A DNA stretch of 64,000 nucleotides, from contig CM075103.1 of assembly GCA_037576195.1 (NCBI GenBank), positions 36,903,250 through 36,967,249 of the forward strand. Reading direction: 5' to 3'. The DNA is from Phytoseiulus persimilis. Taxonomy: Eukaryota; Arthropoda; Arachnida; Mesostigmata; Phytoseiidae. The translations under genes were made by a program, and so were the position numbers. Below, piece by piece: positions 2,547 through 42,472 of the stretch (position 1 is its first letter; each line of letters opens with the position of its first letter). The notes under the pieces are model-generated. The model searched no databases. It worked only from the letters and a program-made list of their open reading frames with translations, and was not told the origin of the DNA.

Positions 2547-5500
2547 TTACATCTGCGTCGTGGTGGACTCTTCGGTGACGAAGACTTGCCGGCTGCCGCC
2601 GGGCACCTGTAACGCAAACGGCTCGGTGTACAGCGGTTCCTTGGTCTCGCAAACTACGCAGTTAAGAGCCCCCTCTCTCTCTCCTCATAGGATCAACACT
2701 TACGGTAGATGTAGTCACCCAGCTCCTGTGCTTAGCTCTGACAAGCGAGAGATTTCCTTCAGCAGAATCGGCTCTATCTTCGGCGGCTTCGAGCTCGCGC
2801 TGGAAGCGGCGGACACGGGACAGATTCTGTTGGCTGAGGCCTTCCTGTGGGTTTCGGTGGGATGGAGAAAAAGTTATTCACCGCATCTCCGGGACTTCCG
2901 GGCAAATCTCTCGTGAGAAGGAAGCATTGCGACGGAGGACACGAACCTGCTCAGTCATTTGCCTCTTGTACACTTTCACCTTCTCGTTGAGCTTCTCAAT
3001 GGTGTCGTTGAGCATGGTGATTGTCTTGTGGTCCTCTTCGGTCTGGACCAGCAATTCTTTGGAACGGTGATCCTTCTTGCGGAGAACCTTCTGAGTCTCA
3101 CCATGACGTTTCTTCTCCTCGTCAAGTTCGAGCTCAATGTCGCGGATCTAAGGGGAGAGAATCGCCCGTTCAGGAGTGACGGAGAGTCGCGGCAACACGA
3201 TTCGTAATAGGATTTAAGGCTCTCGAGGAAGGACGAGGAAAACAAGAAAATTCACTTACCCTGGCTTCGAGCTTTCCAATGACCCTCTTTCCACCGGCGA
3301 GGGCGTTGGCCTCAACCTCCTCGATCCTGACTTGAAGGGTGCGGACCTCGACCTCAAGAGACTTTTTGATGGATTCTACCTTGATGTATTTCTCCTGTTC
3401 TTCAACGAGGATGTCCTTGGTGCTCTTCAGCTCCACGAGAGTCCTCTGGAGACGCTCATCAACAACACGGAGTTCCTTGTGGAGCTCGTCGTAGTCGGCC
3501 TGGAGGGCGGATAGCTCGCCTTCGAGCTTGCTCTTGGCCGAGGCAATGTTTACGTTGATGGTGGTGAGTTCGTTTATGCGGACTTGAGCCTCTTCGAGAG
3601 ACTGCTCAGCGACGCGTTTGCCGCGGAGGGCGGATTCGAGAGCGACGCGCTGCTCGTCGAGCTCAGCCTGGAGACCCTGGCACCTCCTCTGGGAGACGCC
3701 GAGCTGGTCGAGGGTCTGCTGGAGCTGGCGGGCAACTTCATCGTAGTGAGCTTGGAGTTCCTGGATCTGCATGGCCTGCTTCTTGATGACGCGCTGCAAG
3801 TCGAGGTTCTGCTTGTTAGCGGCATCGAGAGACATCTCGAGCTCGGTGATCTGGGCTTGCATCTTCTTCTTGATGCGGGCAACCTCGGTCTTGAGCTTGG
3901 CCTCGGCATCGGCGAGACGCATGTTGAGGTTCTCGACCTCGAGCATGTACTGCTTGCGGAGCGCCTCGAGCTCCTCCTCCTTCTGGGCGAGGCGCTTCTC
4001 GTACTCGTGGCGGACTTGCTGCAGTTCGGACTGGAGCACCTGGCAGCGGTTCTCGGCGGATTTGCGCAGGGACTCGCTCTCCTTGTAGGCGGCGCTGAGC
4101 TCGTCGCGTTCGTTCTCGAGACGCTTGATCTCGATCTCGAGCTCGTGGTTGCGACGGATGGCATCGGCCAAAGAGCTCTTGGCGTCCTGGAGATCGTCGC
4201 TGAGCTTCTTGTTCTCCCTGGCAAGAGCGTCCTTCTGCTCCTGGAGCTTCTCGTATTCGTGCTGGAGCTTGGCGAGCTCGGCGGCCTTCTGGCGAGCGTC
4301 TCTCTGGGCCTGCTCCATGAGCATGGTGACTTCCTCGAGTTTGGCCCTCAGGTCGTTGTTGAGCTTCTCGAGCTGAGCGACGCGCTTCTCGAGAGCCTGG
4401 GCATGCGCGGTGGCCTTCTCGAGGTCCATGATGAGGACCTCGACTTCGCTCTGGAGACGCGACTTCTGCTTCTCGAGCGAAGAGCACCTGTTCAGGAGGG
4501 CCTCGAGCTGCTCTTCGTACTCGGCGATCTTCTGAGCCATCTTGCGGCGGAGGTCTTCGACTTCGTCGATGTGAGCTTGGCATTCGGCCTCGTACTTGCT
4601 CTTGTAGGTGGCAGCGTCGGCGTTGGCCTTCGAGAGCTGTCTCTCGATCTCCAGACGAGCCTCGGCTTCCTCATCGAGCTGAACCTTCAGCGACTCGATC
4701 TCGACTTCGAGTGTGTGCACATGGTTCTCGAGGGAAGAGCGTCTCTGCAGGAATTTGGAAATTAGTTAGGAATCTATCGGATCCATCGATGGATAACCTG
4801 AACTCGTTCGGGCAACGGCGTAATGGGGAGGGATAGGGGGAAACACGCACCCTCTCCTCATCTTCGAGACGCCTGCGGCAGTCTTCCAGCTGGGTGGCAA
4901 GCTGACCCTTGAGATGGTTGACGTTGTCGAGAGAAACCTTGAGCTCGTGGATCTCTTTCAAATACTCAGCATTCTCAGCGCTGAGTCGAGACCTGTTCGA
5001 GAGACGGGAAACGGGAGGAGAGTTAGCCCTGGGCTTGTTGCGGGCCTTGCTAAATGCAAGAATATTGGGATGTTTGACCTAAGCGAACAAACTCGCCTCT
5101 GAGCAGTGACCTCAACGATGGTTCTGTTCAGTTCTTCGATGCGGATGTTCAGCTCATAAACGGTCGTCTCGAGCTTCTCCACGGTCTTCATGGCGGTCAT
5201 CTTCTCCTTCTGAGCGTTTTCGACTTGAGCGAGCAATTCGTAGACTTCGGCCTGGAACTTCTGCTTCTCTTTCTCGGATCTGCAACGCAAGAAGCCTTAG
5301 AGATTCCGCTTCCCGTATTTTGACAATGAAAACCGCGTTGGATGGTCCTGCCGGACTGAGTCCCTCTCGAAATAACGTCAGAGGACCGTTTTGAGAGTAG
5401 CCCAGATGCGGGCCGACGGGAAAGACCGCGGGATTGTTCCATGGGTTGATGGACATTTTCCCGAAACCAAGAGTCGATGGTGACTGCGTAAAGCTCCACC

Positions 5501-6389
5501 TCCAGGGGGGGCAGATCAGCGAAGCAAAAATTCAGATTGTTCCGTACTTGGCCTTGGCCCGAGCGACGGCATCGAGCTGTTCCTGGAATTCAGCGATGGC
5601 TTCCTGGTGCTTCTTGCGCAAATGGTGGGCAGTTTCCTCGCTTTCCAGGTGGACATCTTCTAGCAGCTTCCTGTAAGCGCATTCGCGGAGGATGAGTCGC
5701 GTTTACCACGTTACCTTCCGAGAGCTGGAGTCGGTACCGCCGGGTCGCGGGAGTACCTATCTGTCCCGGCAGGGAGCAGGGCATGCTGCGCCCCGCTTCA
5801 GGCAGCACAACAGCCACGAGCGAACTTCTCTCAACTAAGTAGCTCAACGTACCTGAGCTTGGACAGCTCAGTATCCCGTTTCTTGTTCATCTCGCACTGG
5901 GTTTCGGCCCCGCCTTCGGCCTCCTCCAGGCGGTCGGAAAGTGCAATAAGTTGACATTGCAGATCAGATCGTTCGCGTTCAATTCTCTGCCTCAACTCAC
6001 GCTCGCTATCCAGATCTTCCTGGAGCAGACGGAGTTTGTCCTGCAATCGCGAACTCCTTAGTACGGCCTGGAACCTCACCCTCTATTCGCCCTCAAAGGT
6101 CAGAGAGACGGCAGCACACCAAATACGGGACACCGAACACGGGCGATAGATACTCCGAAGCGGGAAAGCACTTGGTCTACGTCGATCGGTCCATACAGGA
6201 CAGAGCCCAGAAACCGATCTAGCGGAGCGCTCGTTGTAATCCAAAATCGCGAAGCACCACAACAATCCTCTTTCTTACCTCGAGCCTTGTCAGGGCACCG
6301 AGGTCGGTTCCATACTCGATCGAGATGTCTCCCCCGGCTCCTCCGGTGCTCTTGTATACGTATTTGCTGGACCGTGTAACGGAGGCCAT
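2547..6389 (-). CDS. Paramyosin, copy A (9 coding exons, 877 aa)
   Basis: Paramyosin is the rod protein that forms the core of thick filaments in invertebrate muscle; it dimerises as a parallel alpha-helical coiled coil. Exons in order of transcription: 6389-6279, 6040-5853, 5670-5548, 5279-5097, 4992-4851, 4744-3260, 3147-2947, 2844-2704, 2606-2547. They sum to 2634 bases, 877 codons plus TAA, the usual arthropod length. The protein starts [14 protein letters not shown], a typical paramyosin head, has heptad-rich rod throughout (for example [20 protein letters not shown] in exon 6), and ends in a non-helical tail after HRSWVTTST. All splice junctions keep frame; intron 4 uses a GC donor. I see no frameshift or stop. 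It differs from copies B and C by few residues (for example LSLV for LSLI in exon 8). The duplicated block stops near 2443, so the 3' flank with the AATAAA seen in B and C is missing here. Confidence 0.93.
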
Positions 6390-7480
6390 GATCCTTCGAG
6401 GGGATCAAGAGATCACAGAACCAAACACAGACCCTCAACGACAGGCGCGACGAACTCGAAACTCCCGAGGCAGCTACTGAGAGCGGCCTAGCTCAAGTCT
6501 GGTATTAAGTTGGTAGCGGTGGCCTTTTTGGGTATTGGCTTCCAGCGCTGGAAAGGGCGCTGGAAGAGTGCGAGGAGGAGCGCACCACAGAGATTAGTCA
6601 TTATCCTCCCTTAGAGTTCGAGTCTGCTTGGGAGACGGTGCGGCGCGGTGCCCTTATTCGCTACTCAGTTCCCAGCTGACCTACCTGTATCAGCGTGGAA
6701 AGAAGAGCTGTGACTCGCTTCTCCATAGAGAGATCGACGAGGAAAGGTAGAGAAACCCGGTAGAGGGCGGTTGAACCGGGAACACCAACGCCCACATTCC
6801 TCAGCACGGCGGCAGCTCAAGCAGACCACTGCAGAGGGATGGAAATGTTTTTCAGAGGAGTATTTTTTTTTCAGAGATGTTTCCATACGCTGAGCACGTA
6901 TGGCGCGATTCCTTCAATCGAGGGAATTGTTTACTCTCAGTCTCGACGGAGAAATCGGTGATCAGTCTGAGCGGGTGAGATAGAGAGAGAGGGAGAGAGA
7001 GAACGAAAGAGCGCGTTTGGAGGAGAGCGGCAGGATAGTGGTTTGTCGGAAACGGAATTCGAGTTCCGGCTTCGACCGAATAATATCAATCGATGAAACC
7101 GCGGAAATTCCGGCCACGGTTTCTCGTTCTGCTCTGGGGCTGGACAGGAGGATAATCATTTTTCGCTTAGCCTCGGGCTGACTATAGTCCGCACCACGAG
7201 AACAAGAGTTGCGCCATGACTAGATGAGTGATTGGAAGGGAAACACCCAAGAGAACGCCTCCAGAATGGTTCCGATGGACAGTCAATTTGAGATTTTCTA
7301 ATGGATCCGATCATGCCTGTGGCGGCGAATCCCAGCTATACATAGAAAGATGAATTCTGTCTTAATTTGAGCCATTCCGCAAACGAGGAGCAAAGCTCGG
7401 TCATATTAAGCAGCGACAACGGGAAGGTTTCGTCACTGCTTTCGAGACCGGCGTCGGGATATGCAAGTGTTCAATCTCCC
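6390..7480 (-). promoter_or_regulatory. Duplicated 5' flank of paramyosin A
   Basis: This upstream flank is nearly identical to the flank of copy B (19267-20188) and, reversed, of copy C (37545-38625). It probably holds the promoter and a 5' untranslated exon. A consensus-like donor (CAG|GTAGGT in the sense strand) is visible in C near 38330 and has counterparts in A and B. I cannot place a transcription start. The stretch 7346-7480 is shared only with C, because in B a Gypsy LTR begins at the corresponding base. Confidence 0.6.
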
Positions 7481-7489
7481 TGGGTTTCC

Positions 7490-7900
7490 CCGGGATCGAT
7501 CGAACGTTCTAAACACTTCAACCGCGTCTTCTACTGAGACCCAATCAGCAGACGCCCTGAGCGCCGGGAGCAGCGATTCCCCAAAAGTGCAACCAAGGGC
7601 ACACTAGGGCGGGTTTTCCACCACTAACAGACTGGCTTCCGCCATGCGGGATGGCAGGACAAAATCCCATTCATCGTGTGCCGAGAGGCAGTGTTTCGCG
7701 AAACCGAACTCGACGATGGAACTCTCCTTCAACGAGTTCCGCGGCTCATGCTGAGCCTAACTCATCCGTACCACCGTCGACTTCACGAACAGGTATCCCA
7801 GTTGCCCAGTCGTCCTCTCAGGTTCGTCTTTCCGCCCGGCCCTGCTGGAGCACTTCCAAGCCTTCATTGGAAGTGAAGCTGAAATTTCCTCCATCTGAGT
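7490..7900. repeat. Linker block of the paramyosin duplication, copy 1
   Basis: About 400 bp that recur nearly unchanged at 14514-14915. In both places the block precedes (on the plus strand) the 3' flank of a paramyosin copy, D or B respectively. It contains short open frames (for example 7676-7876) that are the same in both copies, but nothing recognisable. It marks the repeat unit of the cluster. The adjoining 7901-8160 has no feature I can name. Confidence 0.8.
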
Positions 7901-8160
7901 GGAACATGAACTCCTCTGATGGAATACGACACTGGACTGATCGCACGTGGAGAGCTATACGAGCGGCGCATATAGTACCACATCATGGGGGTGAACTTCC
8001 GCGTGGCCGGTCCAAACGACGAACGATGATATGGCGCTCCGCGCCGCTCTTCTCACATTCTTGTAGAGGGCAGTGGGTGTGGAAGATGCGCAGATACTGA
8101 CGAGTGACGAGTGAAAGCGCGACGAGATGCCCACGCTGGAAAAACTACTGAGGAACAGTG

Positions 8161-9163
8161 ACGTTTTCTCGAAAACAAGGACTGCAGTGGAAACGTTCCA
8201 GCCCTTTCGAGGAGCCTAGCGTCGCGCAACGTGCGCCCCGCTGTCCAGATTCTGGCCTAATCTCCTTCAAACCAGAACACCAGCCAATCTACGGTTGCGC
8301 CCGTGTCCTCTGTCTTCGGCACCCTGGCTCCTCTGAGGCCTCTCCACACTCCATTCAGTTCATCTGTTGACCGGTGGTCAGGTCTCACGGCGAGTGCACC
8401 GTCACCGTGAATCCATTTCCGAGGGCGTGACGCGTCATGAGCTCCGCAAGCCGAAACCGCACCGAAAGCGAACTCATCCAGACGGAGGCGACGACGACTG
8501 CGTTCTTTCCCCACTCGAGCGCGCTTCGCAGCTGTAAAGCAACCGGCTCGGTGTACAGCGGTTCCGTGGTCTCGCAAACTACGCAGTTGAGAGCCCCCTC
8601 TCTCTCTCTCTCTCTCCTCATGGAATCAACACTTACGGTAGATGTAGTCACCCAGCTCCTGTGCTTAGCTCTGATGAGCGAGAGATTTCCTTCAGCAGAA
8701 TCGGCTCTGTCTTCAGCGGCTTCGAGCTCGCGCTGGAAGCGACGGACACGGGACAGATTCTGTTGGCTGAGGCCTTCCTGTGGGTTTCGGTGGGATGGAG
8801 AAAAAGTTATTCACCGCATCTCCGGGACTTCCGGGCAAATCTCTCGTGAGAAGGAAGCATTGCGACGGAGGACACGAACCTGCTCAGTCATTTGCCTCTT
8901 GTAGACTTTAACCCTCTCGTTGAGCTTCTCAATGGTGTCGTTGAGCATAGTGATGGTCTTGTGGTCCTCTTCGGTCTGGACCAGCAATTCCTTGGAACGG
9001 GGATCCTTCTTGCGGAGAACCTTCTGAGTCTCACCATGACGTTTCTTCTCCTCGTCAAGTTCGAGCTGAATGTCGCGAATCTAAGGGGAGAGAATCGCCC
9101 GTTCAGGAGTGACGGAGAGTGGGGCTCGCGGCAACACGATTCGTAATAGGATTTCAGGCTCTC
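8161..9163 (-). pseudogene. Paramyosin relic, copy D (exons 8 and 7 only)
   Basis: 8161-8540 matches the far 3' flank of paramyosin C (about 42860-43190 reversed). The copy then jumps directly to intron 8, so exon 9, the stop codon and the 3' UTR are lost (about 400 bp relative to B). Exon 8 is at 8777-8637 and exon 7 at 9080-8880, both of full length and in frame, followed by part of intron 6 up to about 9163, where homology stops; exons 1-6 are gone. It has amino-acid changes that A, B and C lack (for example H to P and K to R in exon 7), as expected of a copy free of constraint. Beyond 9163 about 75 bp of unrelated sequence lead into the Copia element. Confidence 0.88.
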
Positions 9164-9238: not shown

Positions 9239-9399
9239 TGTTGTTTCAAATCAGTCTGAAGCTCATCATTTCGGTGGCATTACGTGAACCCAAAAAACGT
9301 GACTTTCTTGGTATCGCGGGTCACGACAGCCATGTCTATATTTGAATCGTCCCATAGATTTCTCATCATTGTTCTGTAATTTATGATCTCTTCACAACA
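9239..9399 (-). repeat. 3' LTR of the Copia element (161 bp)
   Basis: This LTR is shorter than its partner at 13506-13712 by about 46 bp. The missing part corresponds to the middle of the other LTR, which reads through TCCGCACTGTATGTC and a T-rich stretch. Otherwise the two are very similar over both ends. Confidence 0.92.
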
Positions 9400-9410
9400 C
9401 TTCCTCCAGA

Positions 9411-12400
9411 TCATCGGTATAACTGTACTCCTATCTTCGACTGCAGCATTTCAAAACGATTATTTTCTAGTGTTTTGGTACAAATGTCGGCTGGCTGGTT
9501 CTTGCCTTCTATATGCTCAACCGAAAGAGAATCGTCTAAGTACTTCTCTCGTACGGAGAGGTGGCGAACGTGAATGTGCCTTGAACGCGAATGGAATTCT
9601 GGATTCCTGGACAATTTACCTGCACTAGCGTTATCTATGAACCATGTCGGCTTCCGACTTTCTCTCAACAGTTCGAAAATGATCTGCTTCAACCAAATCA
9701 GTTCCCTGGCTCCTTCACTAGCTGCCATGATTTCTGCCTCAGTTGTGGATAAGGCCACAGTGCGCTGTAATTGACTTTTCCATGAGATCGCTCCACCCGC
9801 GCACATGGCGATGATTCCTGTCGTAGATCGACGCGAGTCTTTACAGCCTGCGAAGTCCGCGTCACTGTAAACCTCTAGCCTCGTGCTCGCTCCATATGTC
9901 ATTCCATAATCTTCCGTTCCGCGGAGATATCTGAATATCCGCATGACGTTGTTCCAGTCGGCCCTTGTGGGTTCCTCCATTGTTCTAGCAACCTTCCCAA
10001 CGGCATAGGCGAGGTCCGGGCGAGTGGCCGTGGACAAACAGAGCAAAGAACCAACTGCGCTTCTATACCGTGCTCCGTCCACGATCCCCTCTCCCGGAAC
10101 ACTCTCCTCCTTGCCGGCAGGCGTGCTGATCGGATTGCATCCCTCCATCCGGAACTTCAGAAGGATTTTTCTGACGTAACTGGGCTAACTGATTGTAAGG
10201 GATCCAGGAGAATTATATCTGATCTGTATTCCAAGATAACTGCTCAGATTACCCACCGTTATTATGAATTCCCTCTCGAGTATTCTCAGAAACTCATCAC
10301 ATTTTTCTTGCTTGCTGCTCACGACCAGGCCATCGTCCACATACACCGTCACAAATATTGATTCATTCATGCTGTGCCTGCAGAGAAGACATGGATCTGC
10401 GCTGCTTTTCTTGAATCCGGACTCCGTCATGAACTGTGCGAAGCGATTGTTCCAGCACCTCGACGCCTGTTTGAGTCCGTACAACCCACGTTTCAAACGG
10501 CAAACACTGTCTGTGTCGTCTTCAAAACCCTCGGGTTGCATCATCAGAGCCTCCTCCGTCAGAGTACCATAAAGGTAGGCAGTTTTTACATCGAACTGTC
10601 TGAGACACATTCCCTCAGAGGCCGCAATCGATGAAAAAAGGCGGACCGTATTGTACCTCGCAACGGGAGAAAACGTCTCATCGAAGTCCACTCCGGGGCG
10701 TTGACAGCACCCCCTTGCAACAAGCCTTACCTTGTATCTCTCGCCGTTCTCAGTTCCTTCAATTCGCAGCACCCATCTGTTCCTCAGGATCCTGGCATTT
10801 GAGGGTCGCTCAACGAGTTCCCAAGTTTCATTCTCTCTGATTGGTGCCATCTCCTCCTGCATCGCAGCCAACCATCGCTCCTTGTCGTCGCTCTCCAAGG
10901 CTTCCCGATAGGTCTGCGGACAGATGGACAAGTATGCACTTTCCTCTCCGAATCGCTCTGGAGCCCTTCGCTCGCGTTGGCTTCTTCGAGGCTCAGTCCT
11001 CTCCGAATCCTCATCCGGTGTGGGAAAATTCTCGTCATCGTCGACAACCTCATCACATTTCGAAGCTCCATGAATCACATTACCTGATGTCCTGTCATCC
11101 TTAACCTCCGTAACTCCGAGCTCGATCCGATCCGTCTGGCATCCGCTGCTGCTCGTTCGCATTTGAAGACTGGAACTAGCTCATTGCAAACGACCTCAGG
11201 GTTGAACCGAACGTGATGGGAGCCGAGGACTTTTCCGACTGCAGGGACCCAGACTCGATAACCATCAAGGCCGTTCACGTATCCGACGACGAAGCCCTTT
11301 ACTCCCTTCGCGTTGAATTTCGCCCGGAACCTCTCCTGAACGTAAACATAATATTCAGTACCAAAAATCTTCAGATGATCGATCTTCGTGTGTGAGTTCT
11401 CATGATTGTATCAGAGCTCGGAGGGTGATCTCCCCTCGACCGAGGACTTTCCGGCAAGGTTGAGGAGATAAACCACCGTTTTGCACGCTTCATCCCTAAG
11501 GCTTCTCGGCATCTCCGTTGAGCACATCATGGAACGGGCTGACTCCACGATCGTTCGATTTTCTCTTTCGATTGAGCCTTTTCGGGCCGATTCGAGCGAG
11601 TATGCCGGACAGACCATCCTCTCTATTCCACGTTCACCGAGAAGTCGAGATATGCCGTCGTTGTCGAATTCCCCCCCGCCGTCTGATCGAAAACGCTTCA
11701 CCATATGACCCTTCGTCCTCGCCTCATTCAGGAACGTTTCCAAACAATCACGAACCTCCGATTTTGAACCTATGAGGAATATGCGCCGGAATTTGCTGAG
11801 GTCGTCTTTGAAGCACACGAAGTATCTGGCCCTTCCGATTGACGAAACCGACATATGTCTGTTGACATCAGCATGTATGAGTTCTCCCGTTGCCTCCGAC
11901 TGTTTCGGTCGCGAGCGGAACGGACTTCGATGCATTTGTCCGAGCGCACATCCGTCGCAGAACGCCTCTTCGCCTGATGGTATTCAAAGCCCTAATCTTT
12001 TCAAGAATTCCTCGACGTATCGGGGATTCCGATGCCCCAACCGCTCGTGATAGAGTTGTAGAAGATTGACCTTATTCGCCAGGTGTGCCCTCGCTGCGAA
12101 CGGCTCGCATGTCACCCGGAAATCCATGATGTAGAGTGCATTCATTGCTCGTCCTTGTGCTCTCACAACGTTGTCGTTTCTCGATCGGACGCTGACTTCT
12201 TCTCCCATAATTACGTACATTCCTCTCTCCGAGACAGCCCTCACAGAGAACAGATTCGTCTCGGCGTCCGGAACGTACCACACTCGCACAAGCTCCGCTT
12301 TCGTCCACGCTCCTAGGAAACGAGCCTCGATATCGATATCTCCCACGCCCATTGCCTCCATGAACTGACCACGCTTCCCTAGCTGGATCTGTCGAGGTTT

Positions 12401-13391: not shown

Positions 13392-13490
13392 TTTTCAAAT
13401 GGATGAGCACCGGCGCGATGGAACTCTGCGATGAGCACCGTCGCGATCACGCATTAGCCTTCGGTAGAGAAAACAGACAGATGAAAACCC

Positions 13491-13505
13491 ACTGGGCCCA
13501 TAACT
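13491..13505 (-). other. Primer-binding site of the Copia element (initiator tRNA-Met type)
   Basis: Directly inside the 5' LTR the plus strand reads ACTGGGCCCATAACT. This resembles the anticodon arm of initiator tRNA-Met (CAT anticodon in context). Drosophila copia is known to prime from a half-tRNA cut in that arm instead of the tRNA 3' end, so this element probably does the same. Confidence 0.75.
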
Positions 13506-14915: not shown

Positions 14916-15142
14916 TTTGACCGCTGGCCAGGTCTTACGGCGAGTGCACCGTCACCGTGAATCAATTTCCGAGGGCGTGACGCGTCATGACCTCCGAAAG
15001 CCGGAACCGCACTGAAAACGAACTCATCGAGACGGAGGCGACGACGACTGCGTTCTTTCCCCGCTCGAGCGCGCTTAGCAGCGCACTCGATGAGGGTTCT
15101 GCTGTGAGGAGGAAAGGAGACACCGCGACGTCCGCCGGAAAC

Positions 15143-30464: not shown

Positions 30465-33073
30465 CAGTGGCGTAACAAGGGGGGGGGGGAGGGGCGGACC
30501 GCCCCGGGCGCCACCTGACCGAGAAGTACAGGGGGCGCCGATTTCGGCTCTTCTCTGTTGTGGGTAACTTCGGATTCTCATATGAGACAGGGGACATCCC
30601 TGTCCGGGACAAACCAACGCCGAAGGAAAGCATGTCGGGCTGAGCGCAAACGGGGACTCAAACTTCTCCGTCACGGAGATTGAGAATGGGCGCGGCGTTG
30701 CGATATTTCATGAGGATAAGCGCTCAGAACCTCTGGTCTCGTGATGTCTCCAACGGCCACGCAGCCTCCAACGGAAGCCGTTTTGCGCAGTGATTTTGCT
30801 GCCGTCAAGAGATCGGGTGCTTCCACGAAAGGTATCGTACGACACCTCTCTGAAGACTGGTTCTCCTGAAAGCTGACCAACGGCGAGAAGGTTCTCCGCA
30901 CGTGGATGATGTACACCCCTCACAAAGCTGTTCTCTTCTGCTATTGCTGCAAGCTATTCAACAGTGTCAATCCAACAGATTCAGGATTCAACTCCGAGCA
31001 TGGCTTCAATAGGTATTGGAAGCTCAATCCGAAATTAGATGAGCACGAGGCCTCTCCTTCTCATGTCACATCCTTCACAAAATGGAAGACCCTTGAAATG
31101 AATATCTTAGGTCGAACCACCATCGACGAAGCAGCTCAGCGGGCTAATCGATCCGAAGAAAAGAAATGGAGAGACCTTTTGTCGCGATTTGTCGAAGTCA
31201 TAAAATATCTGGCTAGGCATAATCTCACTTTGCGGGGTCATCGAGAGAGCATTGACGATGATACCACAGCTAACAAAGGCAATTTTCTGGGGCTTTTACA
31301 ACTTTTATCGACCTATGACCCGGTTTTACGTGAGCACCTGATCAAGATGAAACTCGGCAGAAAGATCGAAACATCTTACATGTCGCCGCTTGTGCAGAAT
31401 GAAATAATATCACTCCTTGGGGATCGGGTCCGGAGAAAGATTATCCAGCAAATCAAAGAAGCGAAATATTACTGTATGATATTCGATTCAACACCTGACA
31501 TATCCCCTCAAGACCAAATAAGTCAGGCTCTTCGATACGTGAAAATCGACGGACCCAATATTACCGTCGTCGAATCATTCATTGACTTCATAGGAGCGGC
31601 TGGGAAAACAGCCGAGGACCTAACGCAATTGATTCTGACTCAGATTGAAGGCGACGGCCTCGACATACAAGACTGTCGTGGCCAGGCGTACGACAACGCA
31701 GCCGTGATGGCTGGCAAGTACACTGGCGTGCAAGCGCGCATAAGGAGTATCAATCCTGAGGCTCAGTTCGTGGCATGCACGAATCACTCCTTGAACTTAG
31801 CAGGCGTCCATGCTGTCGCAGAATCCGTGGGCTCAATCACCTTCTTTGGGACAGTGCAGCAAATTTTCGTTTTCTTCTCGTCCTCTACTATTCGCTGGAG
31901 CAAGCTGATCGCTGCCACCAACCAGGGCGTGAGACGTTCGATCGAAACTCGATGGAGTGCACGATATGATGCAGTTTCCGTGATAAAAAATCACTTCGCG
32001 AAGATTTTAGACGTTCTCGACGAACTGACCGCCGCGAACGAGAATACCACAACGCCGTCAGAGGCCGCTCTCTTGCTGAGGTCATTGCAATCATTTTCTT
32101 TCCTGAGCTATCTGGGTTTCTGGTCTGAGGTTCTTCGCGAAATAAACGATACTCAGCGCTATTTACAAAAAAGGGGTATCGACCTACATAACAGCGCTCT
32201 GAAACTATCAGCTCTGAAAACATGGCTCAAGGACTCCCGTGAAGTGATCGTTACGACGGGGGTGACTTTCACCAGAAATCTTTGTGATGAGCTGAGCATT
32301 GAAGTTCCATTTCGCCGTAGGCGACAGTCTAAAAGACCTTTCAACGATTTTTCCGAAAGTGCCAATTTAACCTTCGAGCAAGAAATCACCCGCGAAATGT
32401 ATTCATGCATCGACAGGATCACTCGGGAAACCCTGTCGAGGTTTCAGCAGATGCAGGACTTGGACGCTAAATTCGGTTTCCTGAAACCCACAGAACTTCT
32501 CAGTGGAAGTTCTCCATACGATTTAACGGTCCTTCCGGTCGACATCGACAAAACGGCTTTCCTAGTCGAGCGGGGACGAATTCAGGAGTTTGTGAAAGTC
32601 TGTCCGGCAGAGGAGAAGAGCTCGATGCTCGATGGAGGGCCTTTGGAGGTCCTGCAGTTTATCAAGAGGTATAATCTGGACATCTGCGTCCCAAATATCG
32701 TCATAGCTCTCCGACTCTTTCTTACCGTAGCCATTAGTTCGGCGAGCTGTGAGAGAAGCTTTTCGAAATTGAAATTGATGAAATCTTATCTCCGCTCCAA
32801 CATGAGCCATTTACGGCTCTCAAACCTAGCGATCCTGTCGATCGAGCATGAAATCTCGAATAACATCGATATGGACGATGCGATCAACGAATTCGCGATC
32901 ATGAAAGCTCGGAAGGTTCAGTTTTGAAGCTTGGATAATAAATACCCTTGGCGAATCAACACATTTGATGTTTCATTCACGTAATTCTGGCTGATGTTTC
33001 ATGACACCAGGAGGGGGGGGGGCGCCATTTTCGTTGACCGCCCCGGGCGCCACAGACCCTTGTTACGCCACTG
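30465..33073 (+). mobile_element. hAT-family DNA transposon with perfect TIRs and TSD
   Basis: The ends CAGTGGCGTAACAAGG (30465-30480) and its reverse complement (33058-33073) match over all 16 bases. The 8-bp flanks CATGTCCG (30457-30464) and CATGTACG (33074-33081) agree in seven of eight positions, the target duplication size of hAT elements. Both ends continue into G/C-rich subterminal sequence with shared CCGCCCCGGGCGCC. The element is 2609 bp and carries one transposase frame on the plus strand. It appears young: ends intact and the frame nearly complete. Confidence 0.95.
30906..32927 (+). CDS. hAT transposase, ZMYM1-like, 673-aa open frame with a stop in its N-terminal part
   Basis: The frame begins at tandem ATGs at 30906, but clear homology starts upstream: in the same frame KLTNGEKVLRTW precedes it, part of the TTF-type zinc finger common to these proteins, separated from a further open stretch (back to about 30746) by TGA at 30867-30869. 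From the ATG on, the protein has the finger remainder CYCCKLF (about residues 13-19), MIFDSTPDIS, the conserved RGQAYDNAAVMAGKY, ACTNHSLNLAG, RWSARYDAV, and the C-terminal hAT dimerisation segment ASCERSFSKLKLMKSYLR. No other stop or frameshift is seen. It would cut and paste the surrounding element. Either the TGA inactivates the N-terminal finger, or translation starts at 30906 and yields a protein lacking part of it. Confidence 0.9.
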   Translation: MMYTPHKAVLFCYCCKLFNSVNPTDSGFNSEHGFNRYWKLNPKLDEHEASPSHVTSFTKWKTLEMNILGRTTIDEAAQRANRSEEKKWRDLLSRFVEVIKYLARHNLTLRGHRESIDDDTTANKGNFLGLLQLLSTYDPVLREHLIKMKLGRKIETSYMSPLVQNEIISLLGDRVRRKIIQQIKEAKYYCMIFDSTPDISPQDQISQALRYVKIDGPNITVVESFIDFIGAAGKTAEDLTQLILTQIEGDGLDIQDCRGQAYDNAAVMAGKYTGVQARIRSINPEAQFVACTNHSLNLAGVHAVAESVGSITFFGTVQQIFVFFSSSTIRWSKLIAATNQGVRRSIETRWSARYDAVSVIKNHFAKILDVLDELTAANENTTTPSEAALLLRSLQSFSFLSYLGFWSEVLREINDTQRYLQKRGIDLHNSALKLSALKTWLKDSREVIVTTGVTFTRNLCDELSIEVPFRRRRQSKRPFNDFSESANLTFEQEITREMYSCIDRITRETLSRFQQMQDLDAKFGFLKPTELLSGSSPYDLTVLPVDIDKTAFLVERGRIQEFVKVCPAEEKSSMLDGGPLEVLQFIKRYNLDICVPNIVIALRLFLTVAISSASCERSFSKLKLMKSYLRSNMSHLRLSNLAILSIEHEISNNIDMDDAINEFAIMKARKVQF

Positions 33074-33081
33074 CATGTACG

Positions 33082-34987
33082 ACTTCAGTGCTGGAAAGAA
33101 TTGTTTACCCTCGTGGCAGCGCCTGACGCCTTCTCGAGGTTAACAACGCGCTTCAACCTTGAACCACGTCGCTAGATCTGCTCGTTTAGATGCAACTGAA
33201 CATCGATCCAGTACCCTACGATGGAACAAACCTCCCGTCCCGCATGCTTGGAACACTTCCCACTTTCTGAAGCTCATGGTCGGTTCCCGATCGATTCTCC
33301 GGGGGAATCCGTGGAAGGAACGGACAAAGCTCCGGAAGGGAAGCCTCAGCGGACGAGATGGCGCGCCTCTCAAAATGGAGTTACGATTGCGCGAGCGAAC
33401 CCGTCTTGCCAAGACACTGGTTGTGTCTACAAGCGCTTTCAAGCACTGCGGAACCGAGGAGGGACAATCGTGACTTGTTTCGAGCCAAGTATTATATAAC
33501 GAGTATTCTCGTTTTCCTGTTCTCCCCGCGCTAATTGAATATCTAGCCATGGCATGGGAGTATTAGAATGTTTCCCATGAATCAGCTACGCAGGATCGGA
33601 AACCGACGGCCATGCAGTGTCCGAACGGAGGCTCGGACGTTTCAGGAGATGCTGGAGATCCCTGCGGAGCAACCCAGCGCGAAGATCAGAGAGAAGGGAA
33701 TCAGAACGCCGAGTGGATGCCACGCCCTTGATTTCATGAAAGAACAGACTCACAGATAGTCATACGTTATGTCGTCCAACCTTATCCACGAGAGCCTCGT
33801 CTGAGTCAGCGGTCTCTGGGGCATCTAAAAAAATACGAATAGTTGCCCGCTGTTCCGCCTTCGCGAATTCTCTCTCGGTGACTCACAGCAATGCCGAACA
33901 TTTGGAAATAGTCGTCAACATGGTGACACCGGAGCCGAAATGGACGTGGAACGGTGATTCATGGTAGAAGACTGCTGAGAGCGAACTTCATCGTTCAGAC
34001 ATTCCCACTGACTTTGTTGTTGACTTTGCGCGGTTGCTGTCGGGAGCGTTGTCCAACCGTCGATGCCTGACAAGATGGTGGGAGGCCCTGTCGCGACCGG
34101 ATATGTTTTTTGCTCCTGAGGGCACGGGTCAACTGGGATTCGCGGCGTCGGTTCTTAACCAGCGAGTAGTCAGGCCTCACTTATCTCAACGCGACTGTTC
34201 CTCTAAAAAACCTCGACGCACGCTCGAGATCTTTCGAGAAGAAAAAAACAGGAACGGTTCATCCACGGGCTGAACCGGGGCGCAGAAATGCGAACAACCT
34301 AGCGTCAAGCCGGGATACAGACAAAATTCGTCGATAAATGAATTGGAAAGTACGGTGGATTGGTTTTGAAACACCTACAGAAAAACGAGACGACGATTTT
34401 TTTTCGGGGGATGGGGGGGGGGGTGACCCAACCCCTCGAGAGGGAGGCTTCCGCCCAAAGCCCCCCTCAATTTGTTTTCGACAGTTCTATCTTCAGTGCT
34501 CCGGAATGCCTCTCGAGAAATGATATCGATGCATGTTCGGCCACGTGGAGTCAATATCTCAGGATCGGTTATTATTTCAAGATTTTCAAATTGATTTCGC
34601 ATAAATTCGATATTTTTTTTCTTTTTGAGGGGTTCTTTCAGGTTCCAATTGAAATCACCGCATAGAATCAGTGAAGTTCTCTGGTTTTGTATACCAGGAG
34701 ACAGAACATGGTCATATTTCAGCAGGAACTCTTCAATGAGTTCGAACGATGTTCCCGGATTTATGTATTAGTTGGTTACGTAGGAGTATTTTACAGGCAC
34801 GAATGTCACCAGGATCTTCATCAATGAGATCTGGTGCAATTGTGGGAGTTGCTTGCGTAGGTGCTCCTCTGCGTTCGTGAATAGCAGCTCCACCTGTCGA
34901 CCACGGGGTCAACCGTGGACCCCCTGAGCGACTTCGTTGAAGTTTATGGACTGCCCTGCCCCAGTGGGTCGATCACCGACCATCGAT
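33082..34987. other. Intergenic; no gene recognised
   Basis: Right flank of the hAT element up to the satellite. Short overlapping frames without known domains (for example 33159-33473). A G run lies near 34405-34425 and a T-rich run near 34610-34625. Confidence 0.4.
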
Positions 34988-35945
34988 TTCTTGGAGCGAT
35001 TCCGGGACCAATCCGACCTTCACTTTTCAAGTCTGGAGGAGTGATTCCGGGACCGATCTGACCATCACTCTCCCAGGTCTGAGGGGTGACTCCGGGACCG
35101 ATCTGACCATTACTTCCCAAGTCTGGAGAGGTGATTCCGGGACTAGACATAATTTTCCGTAGTACGGCAATAAAATTTCCGTACCACCCGGTACAGAAAT
35201 TAATTCTTCGTACCCTGGATCCGAGGATCCTCACTACTTATGATCGGCTTCGTCCGTCAGTTTGTCCGAATTCCTCCTGGAATACATGGGGGTGATTCCG
35301 GCAGCAATCTGAGCATACTTTTCTGAGTCTGGAGGAGTGATCCCGGAACCAATTTGAGCATACTTTTCTGAGTCTGATGGGTTTATTCCAGGACGCGTAT
35401 GACAATATCTTGCTGAGTCTGGAGGAGTGATTCCGGCACCAATCTGGCCATTACTTTCCAAGTCTGAAGGGGTGATTCCGGGACCAATCTGACCTTCACA
35501 TTTCAAGTCTGGAGGGGTGATTCCGGGACCGCTCTCACCATTACTTTCCCGGGTCTAAGGGGCGATTCCGGCACCAATCTGACCATTAATTCCCAAGTCT
35601 GGAGGGGTGATTTCGGGACCGATCTGACCATTGCTTTCCAAGTCTGGAGAGTTGATTCCGGGATCAATCTGACCATTACTTTCCAAGTCTTTTTTTTTTT
35701 CTTTTGCGGGGACCAGGATTGAAAATGCGTGATGCAGACCGAGCCACAGCCCCGCTCGGTACTGTGGGAGTCGCATACCCACTAAAAACCTAGTGTCTCC
35801 CCAACCTTCACTTTTCGGGTGAAGGTCCGCCACCCATGGCCGGAACTGCGTTGGCATAACTTCGTTTACTTTCCAAGTCTGGAGGAGGGATTCCGGGACC
35901 ATTCCGACCTTCACTTTTCAAGTCTGGAGGTGTGATTCCGGAACC
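34988..35945 (-). repeat. 45-bp satellite, inverted and interrupted array
   Basis: Units read GTCTGGAGGAGTGATTCCGG and GACCGATCTGACCATCACT on the plus strand, the reverse complement of the unit at 1-1766. Roughly seventeen units are present, more diverged from each other than in the first array. Two insertions break the array: about 35150-35285 (containing a palindromic TGGATCCGAGGATCC) and about 35688-35875 (starting with an oligo-T run). Confidence 0.9.
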
Positions 35946-37544
35946 GACAATACTTTAACTACCATCACTTCATTGTCATTGACCTATGACGAGACACGGA
36001 GATTCACCACATGAAATTCAACTCGAATTCAAATTTCCCTCGTTCCGGAAAGAATCTTAAAGGCCTCCCGCTGCGATTTTTTCGTTCCCATTTTTTCGTT
36101 CCACTCCCAGTTACACCCCAGTAAACACGCCCGAAGAAAAGCGCATTTCTGCGCTAAAACTGTACCAGGACGAGGCCAGAAGCGTACATTCTTTTGAAAC
36201 CGTTTGTACTCGACAAGTCGATCGAGAGGCAAAGAGGTTTCGAGGCTCGAAGAATACCTCACGCGATTTCGGAAATTTCTATCGCTCAAAACAGTGCGAT
36301 TTTCGGAGAAACTGAAGGAAGCTCAAAGCGAAGCGAGTGGCTCGATATAGTCGACTTCCGTACTGCTGCGCTGGAACGGATGTGACCACGGCCGGATTTT
36401 CGTAATAACGCCATCGTTGACGTGAAAGTCCGCCCGGAAAGAACGGGAACCATGGCAGTCCTTCCGAAGTGAGCGCTTTCGCATTCAGTTAGAGACAGCG
36501 CCGGTGGCTGCAGCGACTCCCCGAACTTATATCTGCTCTGCTCGTAGGCTGGACTTGATCCATAACCTGATGTGACCATTGCCATAAGCATGGTCATGCG
36601 CAAGGCGCGGCATGACGGACAAAATTATTGAGACGGAAACACCACGGCGACTACGACGAAAGAGAAGTTGAAAGAAAGGTTAAGATAGACGAACTTTCTC
36701 CAATCCGCAATGAGTTTTAAGGCGATAACGTCGGGAACCAGCTGATTCAATGGACTGGAGGAACTGACAACTCAGTTCCTCGAAGACCCACTCCATATCT
36801 TCGGTATCGATGAAGCCCCCAGAGAGTTCCATGATTTACGTCAAGAGAGCATCAGCTTGTAAGTCGAAGAAAAGGATGATGTGTAGCCAGCACTGAGCGG
36901 CGCCCAGTACTTCTGTGGACGCCCTCCTACATATATTGATGCCTCCATGAATCTCTGGGGGCATCGCCGTTAAGCTCTGTCGAAGTGGGAGCCGAGTTGA
37001 GGAAGGAGCATCGAATCCCTCTCGACGGATGCGCAGAACGTTCCATCACTAGCGACTGTGCCGTTCCAATACAGAGAGCTAGGAAGCGACTGGTTCAGTT
37101 CTGAATGATCTGGAAGGCTGACAGGTGTTTTGGATCGACAGGGAATGTATTATGAATGCTAAGCCAACGTTGATAAACTACCATACGAAGCCACAGAATG
37201 ATTGGGGGAGAATGTTCGCGCGACGATATATTTCTTCCGCAAACAGGATTTTTGTTAGAGCTCCGGACGAGGGCTTGGTCACAACGAGAGTCGTGACTCT
37301 CATGCTCAAGCGAGTTGGCCGAATGCTGTTGGATTTCAAGAACAACAGGAACAAGCACTGAGGAAGTACAGTATAGTCCACGGAGCTCAACCAGATCTTT
37401 GGACGCTGGGAAGGCCAACGGTTACGCGGCCCTGCAGAAGTGTCTCCGCGGTTCTCGGTGCTGCCACGGGGTGGAGCTCTTCCAAGTTTCACAGAAAATC
37501 CGCTCACAGACGTGAGCGGGACTTGTCATGTGTGCCCAAGGAGG
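35946..37544. other. Intergenic; no gene recognised
   Basis: Open frames of up to about 109 codons occur on both strands (complement 36286-36603, 37125-37361) with no family resemblance. The first of these starts with a hydrophobic run (MRMTMLMAMV) that could pass for a signal peptide, which is weak evidence. Confidence 0.4.
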
Positions 37545-38625
37545 TTGAACACTTGCCGATCCCGACGCCGGTCTCGAAAGCAGTGACGAAACCTTCCCGT
37601 TGTCGCTGCTCAATATGACCGAGCTTTGCTCCTCGTTTGCGGAATGGCTCAAATTAAGACAGAATTCATGTTTCTATGTATAGCTGGGATTCGCCGCCAC
37701 AGGCATGATCGGATCCATTAGAAAATCTCAAATTGACTGTCCATCGGAACTATTCTGGAGGCGTTCTCTTGGGTGTTTCCCTTCCAATCATTCATCTAGG
37801 CATGGCGCAACTCTTGTTCTCGTGGTGCGGACTATAGTCAGCCCGAGGCTAAGCAAGAAAAGATTATCCTCCTGTCCAGCCCCAGAGCAGAACGAGAAAC
37901 CGTGGCCGGAATTTCCGCGGTTTCATCGATTGATATTATTCGGTCAAAGCCGGAACTCGAATTCCGTTTCCGACAAACCACTATCCTGCCGCTCTCCTCC
38001 CAACGCGCTCTTTCTTTCTCTCTCTCTCTCTCTATCTCACCCGCTCAGACTGATTACTGATTTCTCCGTCGAGACTGAAAGTAAACAATTCCCTCGATTG
38101 AAGGAATCGCGCCATACGTGCTCAGCGTATGGAAACATCTCTGAAAAAAAAATACTCCTCTGAAAAACATTTCCATCCCTCTGCAGTGGTCTGCTTGAGC
38201 TGCCGCCGTGCTGAGGAATGTGGGCGTTGGTGTTCCCGGTTCAACCGCCCTCTACCGGGTTTCTCTACCTTTCCTCGTCGATCTCTCTATGGAGAAGCGA
38301 GTCACAGCTCTTCTTTCCACGCTGATACAGGTAGGTCAGCTGGGAACTGAGTAGCGAATAAGGGCACCGCGCCGCACCGTCTCCCAAGCAGACTCGAACT
38401 CTAAGGGAGGATAATGACTAATCTCTGCGGTGCGCTCCTCCTCGCACTCTTCCAGCGCCCTTTCCAGCGCTGGAAGCCAATACCCAAAAAGGCCACCGCT
38501 ACCAACTTAATACCAGACTTGAGCTAGGCCGCTCTCAGTAGCTGCCTCGGGAGTTTCGAGTTCGTCGCGCCTGTCGTTGAGGGTCTGTGTTTGGTTCTGT
38601 GATCTCTTGATCCCCTCGAAGGATC
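37545..38625 (+). promoter_or_regulatory. Duplicated 5' flank of paramyosin C
   Basis: Reverse copy of the flank of A (6390-7477), including the outer part that copy B has lost. It contains a TC-rich microsatellite (about 38010-38035) and a possible 5' untranslated exon ending at the donor CAG|GTAGGT near 38330. Confidence 0.6.
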
Positions 38626-41600
38626 ATGGCCTCCGTTACACGGTCTAGCAAATACGTATACAAGAGCACCGGAGGAGCCGGAGGAGACATCTCGATCGAG
38701 TATGGAACCGATCTCGGTGCCCTGACGAGGCTCGAGGTAAGAATGAGGATTGTTGTGGTGCTTCGCGATCTTGGATTACAACGAGCGCTCCGCTAGATCG
38801 TTTCCAGGGCTCTGTCCTGGATGGACAGAGCCCTGGAAGCTATCCCGCTTCGGAGTATCTATCGCCCGTGTTCGGTGTCCCGTATTTGGTGTGCTGCCGT
38901 CTCTCTGACCTTTGAGGGCGAATGGAGGGTGAGGTTCCAGGCCGTACTAAGGAGTTCGCGATTGCAGGACAAACTCCGTCTGCTCCAGGAAGATCTGGAT
39001 AGCGAGCGTGAGTTGAGGCAGAGAATTGAACGCGAACGATCTGATCTGCAATGTCAACTCATTGCACTTTCCGACCGCCTGGAGGAGGCCGAAGGCGGGG
39101 CCGAAACCCAGTGCGAGATGAACAAGAAACGGGATACTGAGCTGTCCAAGCTCAGGTACGTTGAGCTACTTAGTTGAGAGAAGTTTGCCCGTGGCTGTTG
39201 TGCTGCCTGAAGCGGGGCGCAGCATGCCCTGCTCCCCGCCGGGCCGGGACGGGTAGATCGTCCCGCGACCCGGCGGTACCGACTCGAGCTCTCGGAAGGT
39301 AACGTGGTAAACGCGACTCATCCTCCGCGAATGCGCTTACAGGAAGCTGCTAGAAGATGTCCACCTGGAAAGCGAGGAAACTGCCCACCATCTGCGCAAG
39401 AAGCACCAGGAAGCCATCGCTGAATTCCAGGAACAGCTCGATGCCGTCGCTCGGGCCAAGGCCAAGTACGGAACAATCTGAATTTTTGCTTCGCTGATCT
39501 GCCCCCCCTGGAGGTGGAGCTTTATGCAGTCACCATCGACTCTCGGTTTCGGGAAAATGTCCATCAACCCATGGAACAATCCCGCGGTCTTTCCCGTCGG
39601 CCCGCATCTGGGCTACTCTCAAAACGGTCCTCTGACGTTATTTCGAGAGGGACTCAGTCCGGCAGGACCATCGAACGCGGTTTTCATTGTCAAAATACGG
39701 GGAGCGGAATCTCTAAGGCTTCTTGCGTTGCAGATCCGAGAAGGAGAAGCAGAAGTTCCAGGCCGAAGTCTACGAATTGCTCGCTCAAGTCGAAAACGCT
39801 CAGAAGGAGAAAATGACCGCCATGAAGACCGTGGAGAAGCTCGAGACGACCGTTTATGAGCTGAACATCCGCATCGAAGAACTGAACAGAACCATCGTTG
39901 AGGTCACTGCTCAGAGGCGAGTTTGTTCGCTTAGGTCAAACATCCCAATATTCTTGCATTCAGCAAGGCCCGCAACAAGCCCAGGGCTAACTCTCCTCCC
40001 GTTTCCCGTCTCTCGAACAGGTCCCGACTCAGCGCTGAGAATGCTGAGTATTTGAAAGAGATCCACGAGCTCAAGGTTTCTCTCGACAACGTCAACCATC
40101 TCAAGGGTCAGCTTGCCACCCAGCTGGAAGACTGCCGCAGGCGTCTCGAAGATGAGGAGAGGGTGCGTGTTTCCCTCTATCCCTCCCCATTACGCCGTTT
40201 TCCGAACGAGTTCAGGTTATCCATCGATGGATCCGATAGATTCCTAACTAATTTTCACATTCCTGCAGAGACGCTCTTCCCTCGAGAACCATGTGCACAC
40301 ACTCGAAGTCGAGATCGAGTCGCTGAAGGTTCAGCTCGATGAGGAAGCCGAGGCTCGTCTGGAGATCGAGAGACAGCTCTCGAAGGCCAACGCCGACGCT
40401 GCCACCTACAAGAGCAAGTACGAGGCCGAATGTCAAGCTCACATCGACGAAGTCGAAGACCTCCGCCGCAAGATGGCTCAGAAGAACGCCGAGTACGAAG
40501 AGCAGCTCGAGGCCCTCCTGAACAGGTGCTCTTCGCTCGAGAAGCAGAAGTCGCGTCTCCAGAGCGAAGTCGAGGTCCTCATCATGGACCTCGAGAAGGC
40601 CACCGCGCATGCCCAGGCTCTCGAGAAGCGCGTCGCTCAGCTCGAGAAGCTCAACAACGACCTGAGGGCCAAACTCGAGGAAGTCACCATGCTCATGGAG
40701 CAGGCCCAGAGAGACGCTCGCCAGAAGGCCGCCGAGCTCGCCAAGCTCCAGCACGAATACGAGAAGCTCCAGGAGCAGAAGGACGCTCTTGCCAGGGAGA
40801 ACAAGAAGCTCAGCGACGATCTCCAGGACGCCAAGAGCTCTCTGGCCGACGCCATCCGTCGCAACCACGAGCTCGAGATCGAGATCAAGCGTCTCGAGAA
40901 CGAACGCGACGAGCTCAGCGCCGCCTACAAGGAGAGCGAGTCCCTGCGCAAATCCGCCGAGAACCGCTGCCAGGTGCTCCAGTCCGAACTGCAGCAAGTC
41001 CGCCACGAGTACGAGAAGCGCCTCGCCCAGAAGGAGGAGGAGCTCGAGGCGCTCCGCAAGCAGTACATGCTGGAGGTCGAGAACCTCAACATGCGTCTCG
41101 CCGATGCCGAGGCCAAGCTCAAGACCGAGGTTGCCCGCATCAAGAAGAAGATGCAAGCCCAGATCACCGAGCTCGAGATGTCTCTCGATGCCGCTAACAA
41201 GCAGAACCTCGACTTGCAGCGCGTCATCAAGAAGCAGGCCATGCAGATCCAGGAACTCCAAGCTCACTACGATGAAGTTGCCCGCCAGCTCCAGCAGACC
41301 CTCGACCAGCTCGGCGTCTCCCAGAGGAGGTGCCAGGGTCTCCAGGCTGAGCTCGACGAGCAGCGCGTCGCTCTCGAATCCGCCCTCCGCGGCAAACGCG
41401 TCGCTGAGCAGTCTCTCGAAGAGGCTCAAGTCCGCATAAACGAACTCACCACCATCAACGTAAACATTGCCTCGGCCAAGAGCAAGCTCGAAGGCGAGCT
41501 ATCCGCCCTCCAGGCCGACTACGACGAGCTCCACAAGGAACTCCGTGTTGTTGATGAGCGTCTCCAGAGGACTCTCGTGGAGCTGAAGAGCACCAAGGAC

Positions 41601-42472
41601 ATCCTCGTTGAAGAACAGGAGAAATACATCAAGGTAGAATCCATCAAAAAGTCTCTTGAGGTCGAGGTCCGCACCCTTCAAGTCAGGATCGAGGAGGTTG
41701 AGGCCAACGCCCTCGCCGGTGGAAAGAGGGTCATTGGAAAGCTCGAAGCCAGGGTGAGTGAATTTTCTTGTTTTCCTCGTCCTTCCTCGAGAGCCTTAAA
41801 TCCTATTACGAATCGTGTTGCCGCGAGCCCCACTCTCCGTCACTCCTGAACGGGCGATTCTCTCCCCTTAGATCCGCGACATTGAGCTCGAACTTGACGA
41901 GGAGAAGAAACGTCATGGTGAGACTCAGAAGGTTCTCCGCAAGAAGGATCACCGTTCCAAAGAATTGCTGGTCCAGACCGAAGAGGACCACAAGACAATC
42001 ACCATGCTCAACGACACCATTGAGAAGCTCAACGAGAAGGTGAAAGTGTACAAGAGGCAAATGACTGAGCAGGTTCGTGTCCTCCGTCGCAATGCTTCCT
42101 TCTCACGAGAGATCCGCCCGAAAGTCCCGGAGATGCGGTGAATAACTTTTTCTCCATCCCACCGAAACCCACAGGAAGGCCTCAGCCAACAGAATCTGTC
42201 CCGTGTCCGCCGCTTCCAGCGCGAGCTCGAAGCCGCTGAAGACAGAGCCGATTCTGCTGAAGGAAATCTCTCGCTTATAAGAGCTAAGCACAGGAGCTGG
42301 GTGACTACATCTACCGTAAGTGTTGATCCCATGAGGAGAAAGAGAGAGGGCTCTCAACTGCGTAGTTTGCGAGACCACGGAACCGCTGTACACCGAGCCG
42401 TTTGCGTTACAGGTGCCCGGCGGCAGCCGGCAAGTCTTCGTCACCGAAGAGTCCACCACGACGCAGATGTAA
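38626..42472 (+). CDS. Paramyosin, copy C (9 coding exons, 877 aa), inverted
   Basis: Same product as copies A and B, on the opposite strand. Exons: 38626-38736, 38968-39155, 39343-39465, 39734-39916, 40021-40162, 40269-41753, 41872-42072, 42175-42315, 42413-42472; total 2634 bases. Introns are 231, 187, 268, 104, 106, 118, 102 and 97 bp. The donor of intron 4 is AG|GCGAGT, a GC-AG intron, required to keep the frame into [10 protein letters not shown]. The start ATG gives [14 protein letters not shown] and the tail ends TEESTTTQM. One clear residue difference from A and B is N for I in [12 protein letters not shown] of exon 6. AATAAA follows at 42743. No lesion is visible. Confidence 0.94.

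Follow-up and report, generated by a model that had tools for sequence, protein, structure and literature searches.

Four intact and nearly identical paramyosin genes clustered in the mite Phytoseiulus persimilis, a probable recent local amplification

The stretch of DNA analysed here (the window) is 64,000 nucleotides of the Phytoseiulus persimilis assembly GCA_037576195.1, taken from contig CM075103.1 (here C3, 38.9 Mb; C3:36903250-36967249). It carries three intact genes for paramyosin (copies A, B and C), a fragment of a fourth copy (D), and, 1.5 kb beyond its right end, a further intact gene (E). In total, four intact genes and one fragment lie within about 68 kb (blocks 2437-70422), and the coding parts of all copies fall at C3:36.905-36.973 Mb; negative positions and positions above 64,000 are window numbering carried beyond the window edges. 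We consider it likely that this cluster is a real and recent local amplification of one muscle gene. When the whole assembly (180,977,233 bases in 127 contigs) was searched with exon 6, 19 matches were obtained, and the four at 100% rounded identity were A, B, C and E; the remaining 15 (23-44% identity) are taken as myosins and other coiled coils, four of these loci having been translated. A DNA search with the 3' part of the gene returned five places, A to E, all of them in this C3 cluster, and no paramyosin copy outside it was found at this sensitivity in the 181 Mb, the other contigs included. There is no N base across the 174 kb around the cluster (C3:36853250-37027249).

The intact copies share one gene structure (Table 1). 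In A, B and C, the coding exons measure 111, 188, 123, 183, 142, 1485, 201, 141 and 60 nt (2634 nt in sum), the reading frame is kept throughout with zero internal stops, and all eight introns end in AG and begin with GT, except for a GC donor at intron 4. Copy E has the same exon set with intact splice sites, and thus all four copies are intact. An earlier reading of the window made from its letters only (hereafter the sequence-only reading) had described three intact genes, two direct and one inverted, with nine exons of equal length, open frames and few residue differences. Our analysis agrees with it on these points, as A and B lie on the minus strand and C on the plus strand, the exon lengths are the same in three of three copies, and the four proteins differ pairwise at only one or two positions; the N/I difference in exon 6 and the V/I difference in exon 8 that it singled out are I322N (in C) and V846I (A against B and C). 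Its count of three copies is right for the window but incomplete, since copy E outside the window and fragment D were overlooked, and its span of 2547-42472 gives the gene ends correctly but stops at the stop codon of C, whereas the homology of C to the other copies covers 37535-43191. Compared with C, fragment D has a deletion of about 390 bp that takes away almost the whole of exon 9, and its exon 7 has three changes (E to Q, H to P and K to R) which occur in none of A-C.

The encoded protein has the features of paramyosin. Residues 35-853 align to the rod (residues 1109-1926) of a myosin heavy chain with an E value of 2.4e-159 in a library of solved structures, which returned myosins only, and exon 6 matches the Pfam family Myosin_tail_1. 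The motor domain is absent from the predicted protein, which has its own ATG followed by a short end ahead of the rod. The charge periodicity expected of such a rod is strong, with the power at 28/3 exceeded in none of 2,000 shuffles, and the core power at 3.5 was reached in one of 2,000. The best periods were 9.40 (charge) and 3.525 (core, hydrophobic), slightly above 9.33 and 3.50, which fits 28-residue zones with skip residues. We presume a likeness to tick and mesostigmatan paramyosin as well. The length of 877 amino acids in all four copies lies within the range of 870-880 tested, and the available text on Der g 11 of Dermanyssus gives 874 amino acids and a coding sequence of 2,622 bp (PMC5059928).

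The copies arose by duplication of DNA. The blocks of A, B and C are 96.6-97.8% identical over about 5 kb, introns included, which is far above chance; A and E are 97.8% identical over 5,059 aligned columns, and C and E 99.2% over 6,994. They are segmental duplications in the sense of more than 90% identity over at least 1 kb with introns and flank, and a retrocopy origin was ruled out by the eight introns retained in all four copies. Because the introns and the 5' flank are common to A, B and C and their surroundings are unrelated, these copies are DNA-level duplicates and not alleles. Haplotype duplication would have left collinear shared flanks, but A, B and C are homologous only within the duplicated blocks, and neither N-marked joins nor second copies on small contigs were found. 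In family controls, the largest subunit of RNA polymerase gave 7 matches at three loci, presumably a single gene for each of the polymerases I, II and III, and tropomyosin gave 6 matches at one locus; neither control shows a general duplication. Two other stretches were searched as well, and one had no second match and the other had weak ones only (74-81%).

After duplication, the copies appear to have exchanged sequence. First, the odd copy out shifts from block to block: across the stretch from exon 1 through intron 2 it is C, the 5' flank and late exon 6 set B apart, and A stands out at exon 8 and intron 8. The 90 informative sites of the gene body fall into 31 runs where 59.7 are expected, and none of 20,000 shuffles gave so few; exon 6 (P = 3e-4) and the part from exon 3 to the stop codon (P = 1.5e-4) are also patchy on their own. 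Second, C and E are nearly identical over a tract of about 6 kb with a sharp edge. Just upstream of the tract they differ at 27 of 1,007 positions, compared with 5 of 5,961 inside it (Fisher p = 1.5e-18). Within the tract, introns and flank are as identical as exons (0 of 950 positions differ in the 5' flank), so selection on the protein cannot explain it, and the contrast between the inside and the outside of the gene points to recent gene conversion over the gene unit. With both excess local identity and patchy relatedness, the copies appear to be evolving in concert.

The coding differences among the copies are mostly silent. There are 22, 16 and 26 synonymous differences (A-B, A-C and B-C, respectively) and 1, 2 and 1 nonsynonymous ones. 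The synonymous divergence (dS) among A, B and C is 0.029-0.047, and the ratio of the nonsynonymous divergence to it (dN/dS) is 0.012 for A-B, 0.034 for A-C and 0.010 for B-C. The private changes of each copy, synonymous/nonsynonymous, are 6/1 in A, 16/0 in B and 10/1 in C, and under the most lenient of three mutation weightings the P values for neutrality are 0.0024, 1.2e-9 and 2.2e-5. From these counts, each of the A, B and C lineages has been constrained since their separation, or at least until recent exchange.

Several observations weigh against this picture of an amplified, constrained and exchanging gene. The stretch from ATG to intron 2 taken alone shows no significant patchiness (P = 0.13), and part of the patchiness could be lineage-specific change, for example in the 5' flank of B; for this reason the runs test was confined to the gene body and three parts of it. 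The coding sequences of C and E differ at three sites, of which one is silent and two are nonsynonymous (I322N in C and S711C in E), and I322N falls at a predicted heptad core position. The C/E pair is too young to show constraint on its own. In addition, a lone N lies at C3:35515858, exactly at the end of the left arm of another palindrome on the same contig, which holds myosin heavy chain genes and is described below.

It is possible, if rather unlikely, that the amplification is real but that only one or two copies are used, the rest being young passengers which have not yet decayed. Fragment D is already broken, the C/E differences just mentioned are nonsynonymous by two to one, and the surroundings are rich in transposons and satellite. 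Copy A also has no 3' end of the B/C type: the poly(A) signal at stop+271 in B and C, where E does not differ from C, is missing from A, which has another AATAAA at stop+542. However, nearly all private changes of A, B and C are silent, which is improbable under neutrality for each of these copies, and the splice sites are intact in four of four copies. Conversion from a used copy could clean an unused one, yet it would erase the silent differences too.

Copies C and E lie in the two arms of an inverted duplication, and we think it unlikely that the assembly has instead joined both haplotypes of a single locus head to head, with A, B and D real and a haploid number of three. Seven pieces of the arms match in mirror orientation around a spacer of 10.4 kb; the identity is 96.9-99.2% in six of them and 88.3% in the other. 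Outside the gene tract, they diverge by 0.4-9.9% per 500-bp window, with 17 of 30 windows at 1-3%. This level of divergence, together with insertions present in one arm only, would fit two haplotypes, and the other palindrome on C3 does have an N at its joint. Only the left arm has the stretches with a hAT element (30465-33073) and a block of 45-bp satellite (34247-36155), and about 16.4 kb of other sequence is confined to the right arm. On the other side, there is zero N over the 174 kb, and the arms are not fully collinear, as the flanks of C and E match in pieces that are rearranged and interrupted. For example, the piece at 24031-25016 has its right-arm match beside E at 63991-64773 in direct and not in mirror orientation, and the right arm has its 16.4 kb of other sequence instead. 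Furthermore, B lies only 1.5 kb beyond the edge of the left arm, and no mirror counterpart of it occurs as far as position 124,000. A left-arm piece searched in the assembly gave two high-identity places, which are the two arms, and 62 weaker matches.

The copies might also make the same protein in different muscles or stages through diverged regulation, which we consider doubtful. The 5' flank of B is 12-15% different from those of A, C and E at -600 to -401, with small indels, where A and C differ by 0-3%, and the 3' end of A is different as described above. The 5' flanks of C and E, however, are identical, and among all copies the 400 bp immediately upstream of the start vary by only 0-4% per 100 bp. 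A bacterial-type promoter scan of the 5' flank of A, a method unsuited to an animal gene, gave nothing.

A further and still more doubtful idea is that the genes of the two main thick-filament proteins on this chromosome were co-amplified, paramyosin fourfold and myosin heavy chain in a palindrome, and that mirror arms homogenise or repair their genes and so hold extra dosage against decay. This palindrome (C3:35485001-35549809, spacer about 3.1 kb) lies about 1.4 Mb to the left of the window. Its arms are at least 30 kb long and 99.6% alike over the 26 kb aligned, with several 2-kb windows having 0 differences, and the left arm ends 32-52 kb from the centre. Part of another, related heavy-chain gene, oriented towards the joint, is present in each arm as well. 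The palindrome is possibly an assembly joint or a second muscle-gene amplification. As the lone N marks the end of its left arm, it is suspect and was set aside as support for co-amplification. The C/E duplication has a similar shape, but it has no N, and its arms are more diverged and are rearranged.

The interval between A and B bears on whether the cluster is contiguous DNA. The homology of A to C stops exactly at 7484, where R1, one of two copies of a segment R, begins; about 460 bp found at D are absent at the second copy, R2. Sequences 88-90% alike to R1 and to the bases on its right occur at four places on C2 at 14.62-14.64 Mb (C2:14618861-14639735), and at two of these four places (6.5 kb fetched) the left neighbour of R is the segment that lies left of R2 at 13715-14506. 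Since the left neighbour of R on C2 matches that of R2, we read the R2 neighbourhood as the apparently old arrangement and the contact of A with R1 as a putative derived duplication joint. R1 and R2 as the long terminal repeats (LTRs) of one large element around A-B were rejected, because in the C2 relatives R runs on without a break into its left neighbour and into the 251 bp on its right. The LTR pair actually found in the interval is that of a copia-type retrotransposon beside D, the two LTRs of which differ in length by 46 bp. In both C2 copies examined, the bases on either side of this element are joined, that is, the insertion site is empty, which is evidence that the DNA between A and B is real and contiguous. 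Near the R-like places on C2 there is a frame with a secreted-protein-like start and no Pfam match, and 77 bp of C2 DNA (98.7% alike) adjoin intron 6 of fragment D. It is very improbable that a single-copy gene was multiplied into the entire cluster by an artefact of assembly or of haplotypes. Heterozygous alleles can reach the silent divergence of 3-5% seen here, but a diploid yields two alleles and not four copies plus a fragment. A, B and C have unrelated flanks, the copia element separating A from B is inserted cleanly and has a target duplication, and the searches gave no further copy on the other contigs.

Table 1 Features of the paramyosin cluster in window numbering (positions above 64,000 lie beyond the window).
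Feature	Position	Strand	Remarks
Paramyosin copy A	2547-6389	-	9 coding exons, 877 amino acids; duplicated block 2437-7484
Copy A exons	2547-2606, 2704-2844, 2947-3147, 3260-4744, 4851-4992, 5097-5279, 5548-5670, 5853-6040, 6279-6389	-	
R1 plus 251 bp	7485-8149		directly adjoins the end of the 5' flank of A
Fragment D	exons 7-8 at 8528-9163; whole piece 8150-9163	-	end of intron 6, exons 7-8, intron 8, 3' flank
Copia-type LTR retrotransposon	9239-13712	-	beside D; LTRs 9239-9399 and 13506-13712; target duplication CCGAG (5 bp)
R2	14507-14920		second R copy (98% to R1), on the 3' side of B
Paramyosin copy B	15419-19266	-	9 coding exons, 877 amino acids; duplicated block 14909-20188
Copy B exons	15419-15478, 15576-15716, 15819-16019, 16138-17622, 17729-17870, 17974-18156, 18425-18547, 18730-18917, 19156-19266	-	
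Left arm of rearranged inverted duplication	21675-48323		contains C; mirror pieces within 97407-58710
C/E near-identical tract	37163-43123		5 differences in 5,961 bp
Paramyosin copy C	38626-42472	+	9 coding exons, 877 amino acids; private I322N
Copy C exons	38626-38736, 38968-39155, 39343-39465, 39734-39916, 40021-40162, 40269-41753, 41872-42072, 42175-42315, 42413-42472	+	
Right arm, part inside the window	58710-64000		E itself beyond the window
Paramyosin copy E	65485-69331 (C3:36968734-36972580)	-	1.5 kb past the window end; nine exons, 877 amino acids

Other sequences in and around the arms are described here for completeness. The hAT element has a transposase frame (30906-32927) of 673 amino acids, open throughout, with the domains DUF4371 and Dimer_Tnp_hAT. 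Two copies of an element resembling a long interspersed nuclear element (LINE), at 43666-48323 and 58710-63367, are 99.0% alike and in opposite orientation; they have 67-bp tandem repeats near one end and a weak, below-cut-off match to the Pfam domain zf-RVT. The region 22658-23869, which has mirror pieces within 93449-97407, gave a weak match, also below cut-off, to cuticlin and ZP-N; it may be a gene of cuticle type that the arms carry in duplicate. The 45-bp satellite also occurs left of A at -9715 to 1767 and -23872 to -15244, in opposite orientations and about 90% alike among the matches listed, and a more diverged relative (70-78%) is found at 34993-35690. A single open frame at 53369-54454 combines a legume-like lectin domain of host type with retroelement integrase domains, and is probably an element inserted in or beside a host gene. 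Rfam and tRNA scans of the window gave 0 matches each.

Taken together, we propose the following course for the amplification. The whole gene, introns included, would have been copied head to tail together with about 0.9-1.1 kb of 5' flank, giving A, the ancestor of D, and B, and its presence in mirror orientation (C and E) would have come through a separate inverted duplication, which was rearranged later; this order of the duplications is the one that the present arrangement suggests to us. Afterwards, the copies appear to have exchanged sequence by gene conversion or unequal exchange, the latest exchange probably being the tract of about 6 kb between C and E, and purifying selection has held the proteins almost identical. 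The effect would be more of one thick-filament protein. More of the same protein is the most economical reading, with dosage as the conceivable selected trait, and all four copies would be transcribed in muscle. The sequence-only reading had proposed a local amplification, which is borne out by four intact copies and one fragment in N-free sequence, and had named dosage, recent structural instability and isoform divergence as possible backgrounds, of which dosage is possible. The deletions, the transposon insertions and the rearranged inverted duplication, all in N-free sequence, speak for such instability; isoform divergence is not supported by proteins that are so nearly the same.

In invertebrates, paramyosin determines how thick filaments are built, and its ratio to myosin matters for filament structure. 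Four near-identical copies in one species provide a natural setting in which to test whether extra genes are tolerated or favoured by thick-filament stoichiometry. In addition, the sharp identity edge between C and E offers a clean site to study arm-to-arm conversion in an arthropod. In practical terms, single-locus markers or knockdowns against paramyosin would face four genes in this species.

The amplification can be compared with several known systems. First, the general description of paramyosin as single-copy, on which the sequence-only reading relied, agrees with the few mite papers at hand: in the portions available, Sarcoptes scabiei is reported to have one paramyosin homologue (PMC4641413) and Euroglyphus maynei a single paramyosin (PMC5568732), and one paramyosin gene model is listed for Dermanyssus gallinae (PMC8028124). 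The available parts of PMC6275457 and PMC8476170 do not state a copy number, PMC8945602, searched by term, yielded nothing, and no report of amplified paramyosin was found in the open-licence literature searched, with result lists partly covered. The mite group 11 allergens (Der g 11, Der p 11 and Der f 11) are likewise rod proteins of the same length class, but one gene is described in the accessible accounts of Sarcoptes, Euroglyphus and Dermanyssus, compared with four intact genes here; the link to the Der p 11 type that had been noted from the sequence is a family resemblance and goes no further than that. Second, allergen-related genes are also duplicated locally in Sarcoptes scabiei. According to the sections seen of that report, however, these are proteases, some of them inactivated, whereas the present case concerns a structural muscle protein that is almost unchanged (PMC4641413). 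Third, the excerpts available on Folsomia candida describe palindromic gene blocks (11 of 15 linked blocks), with genes in mirror-image arms and amplified genes inside, as seen for C and E. The same excerpts give a wide range of synonymous divergence (Ks), with concerted evolution unsupported, whereas here a gene-sized tract is nearly identical (PMC5490193). Finally, the human Y palindromes, as far as the available text of PMC6790999 describes them, share with this cluster the mirror arms, the amplified genes and the arm-to-arm gene conversion. Unlike both the Folsomia and the human Y palindromes, the arms here are mostly 1-3% apart around the tract, and direct copies adjoin them. The process of duplication and conversion is already known from other systems, and it is paramyosin that is the unusual target.

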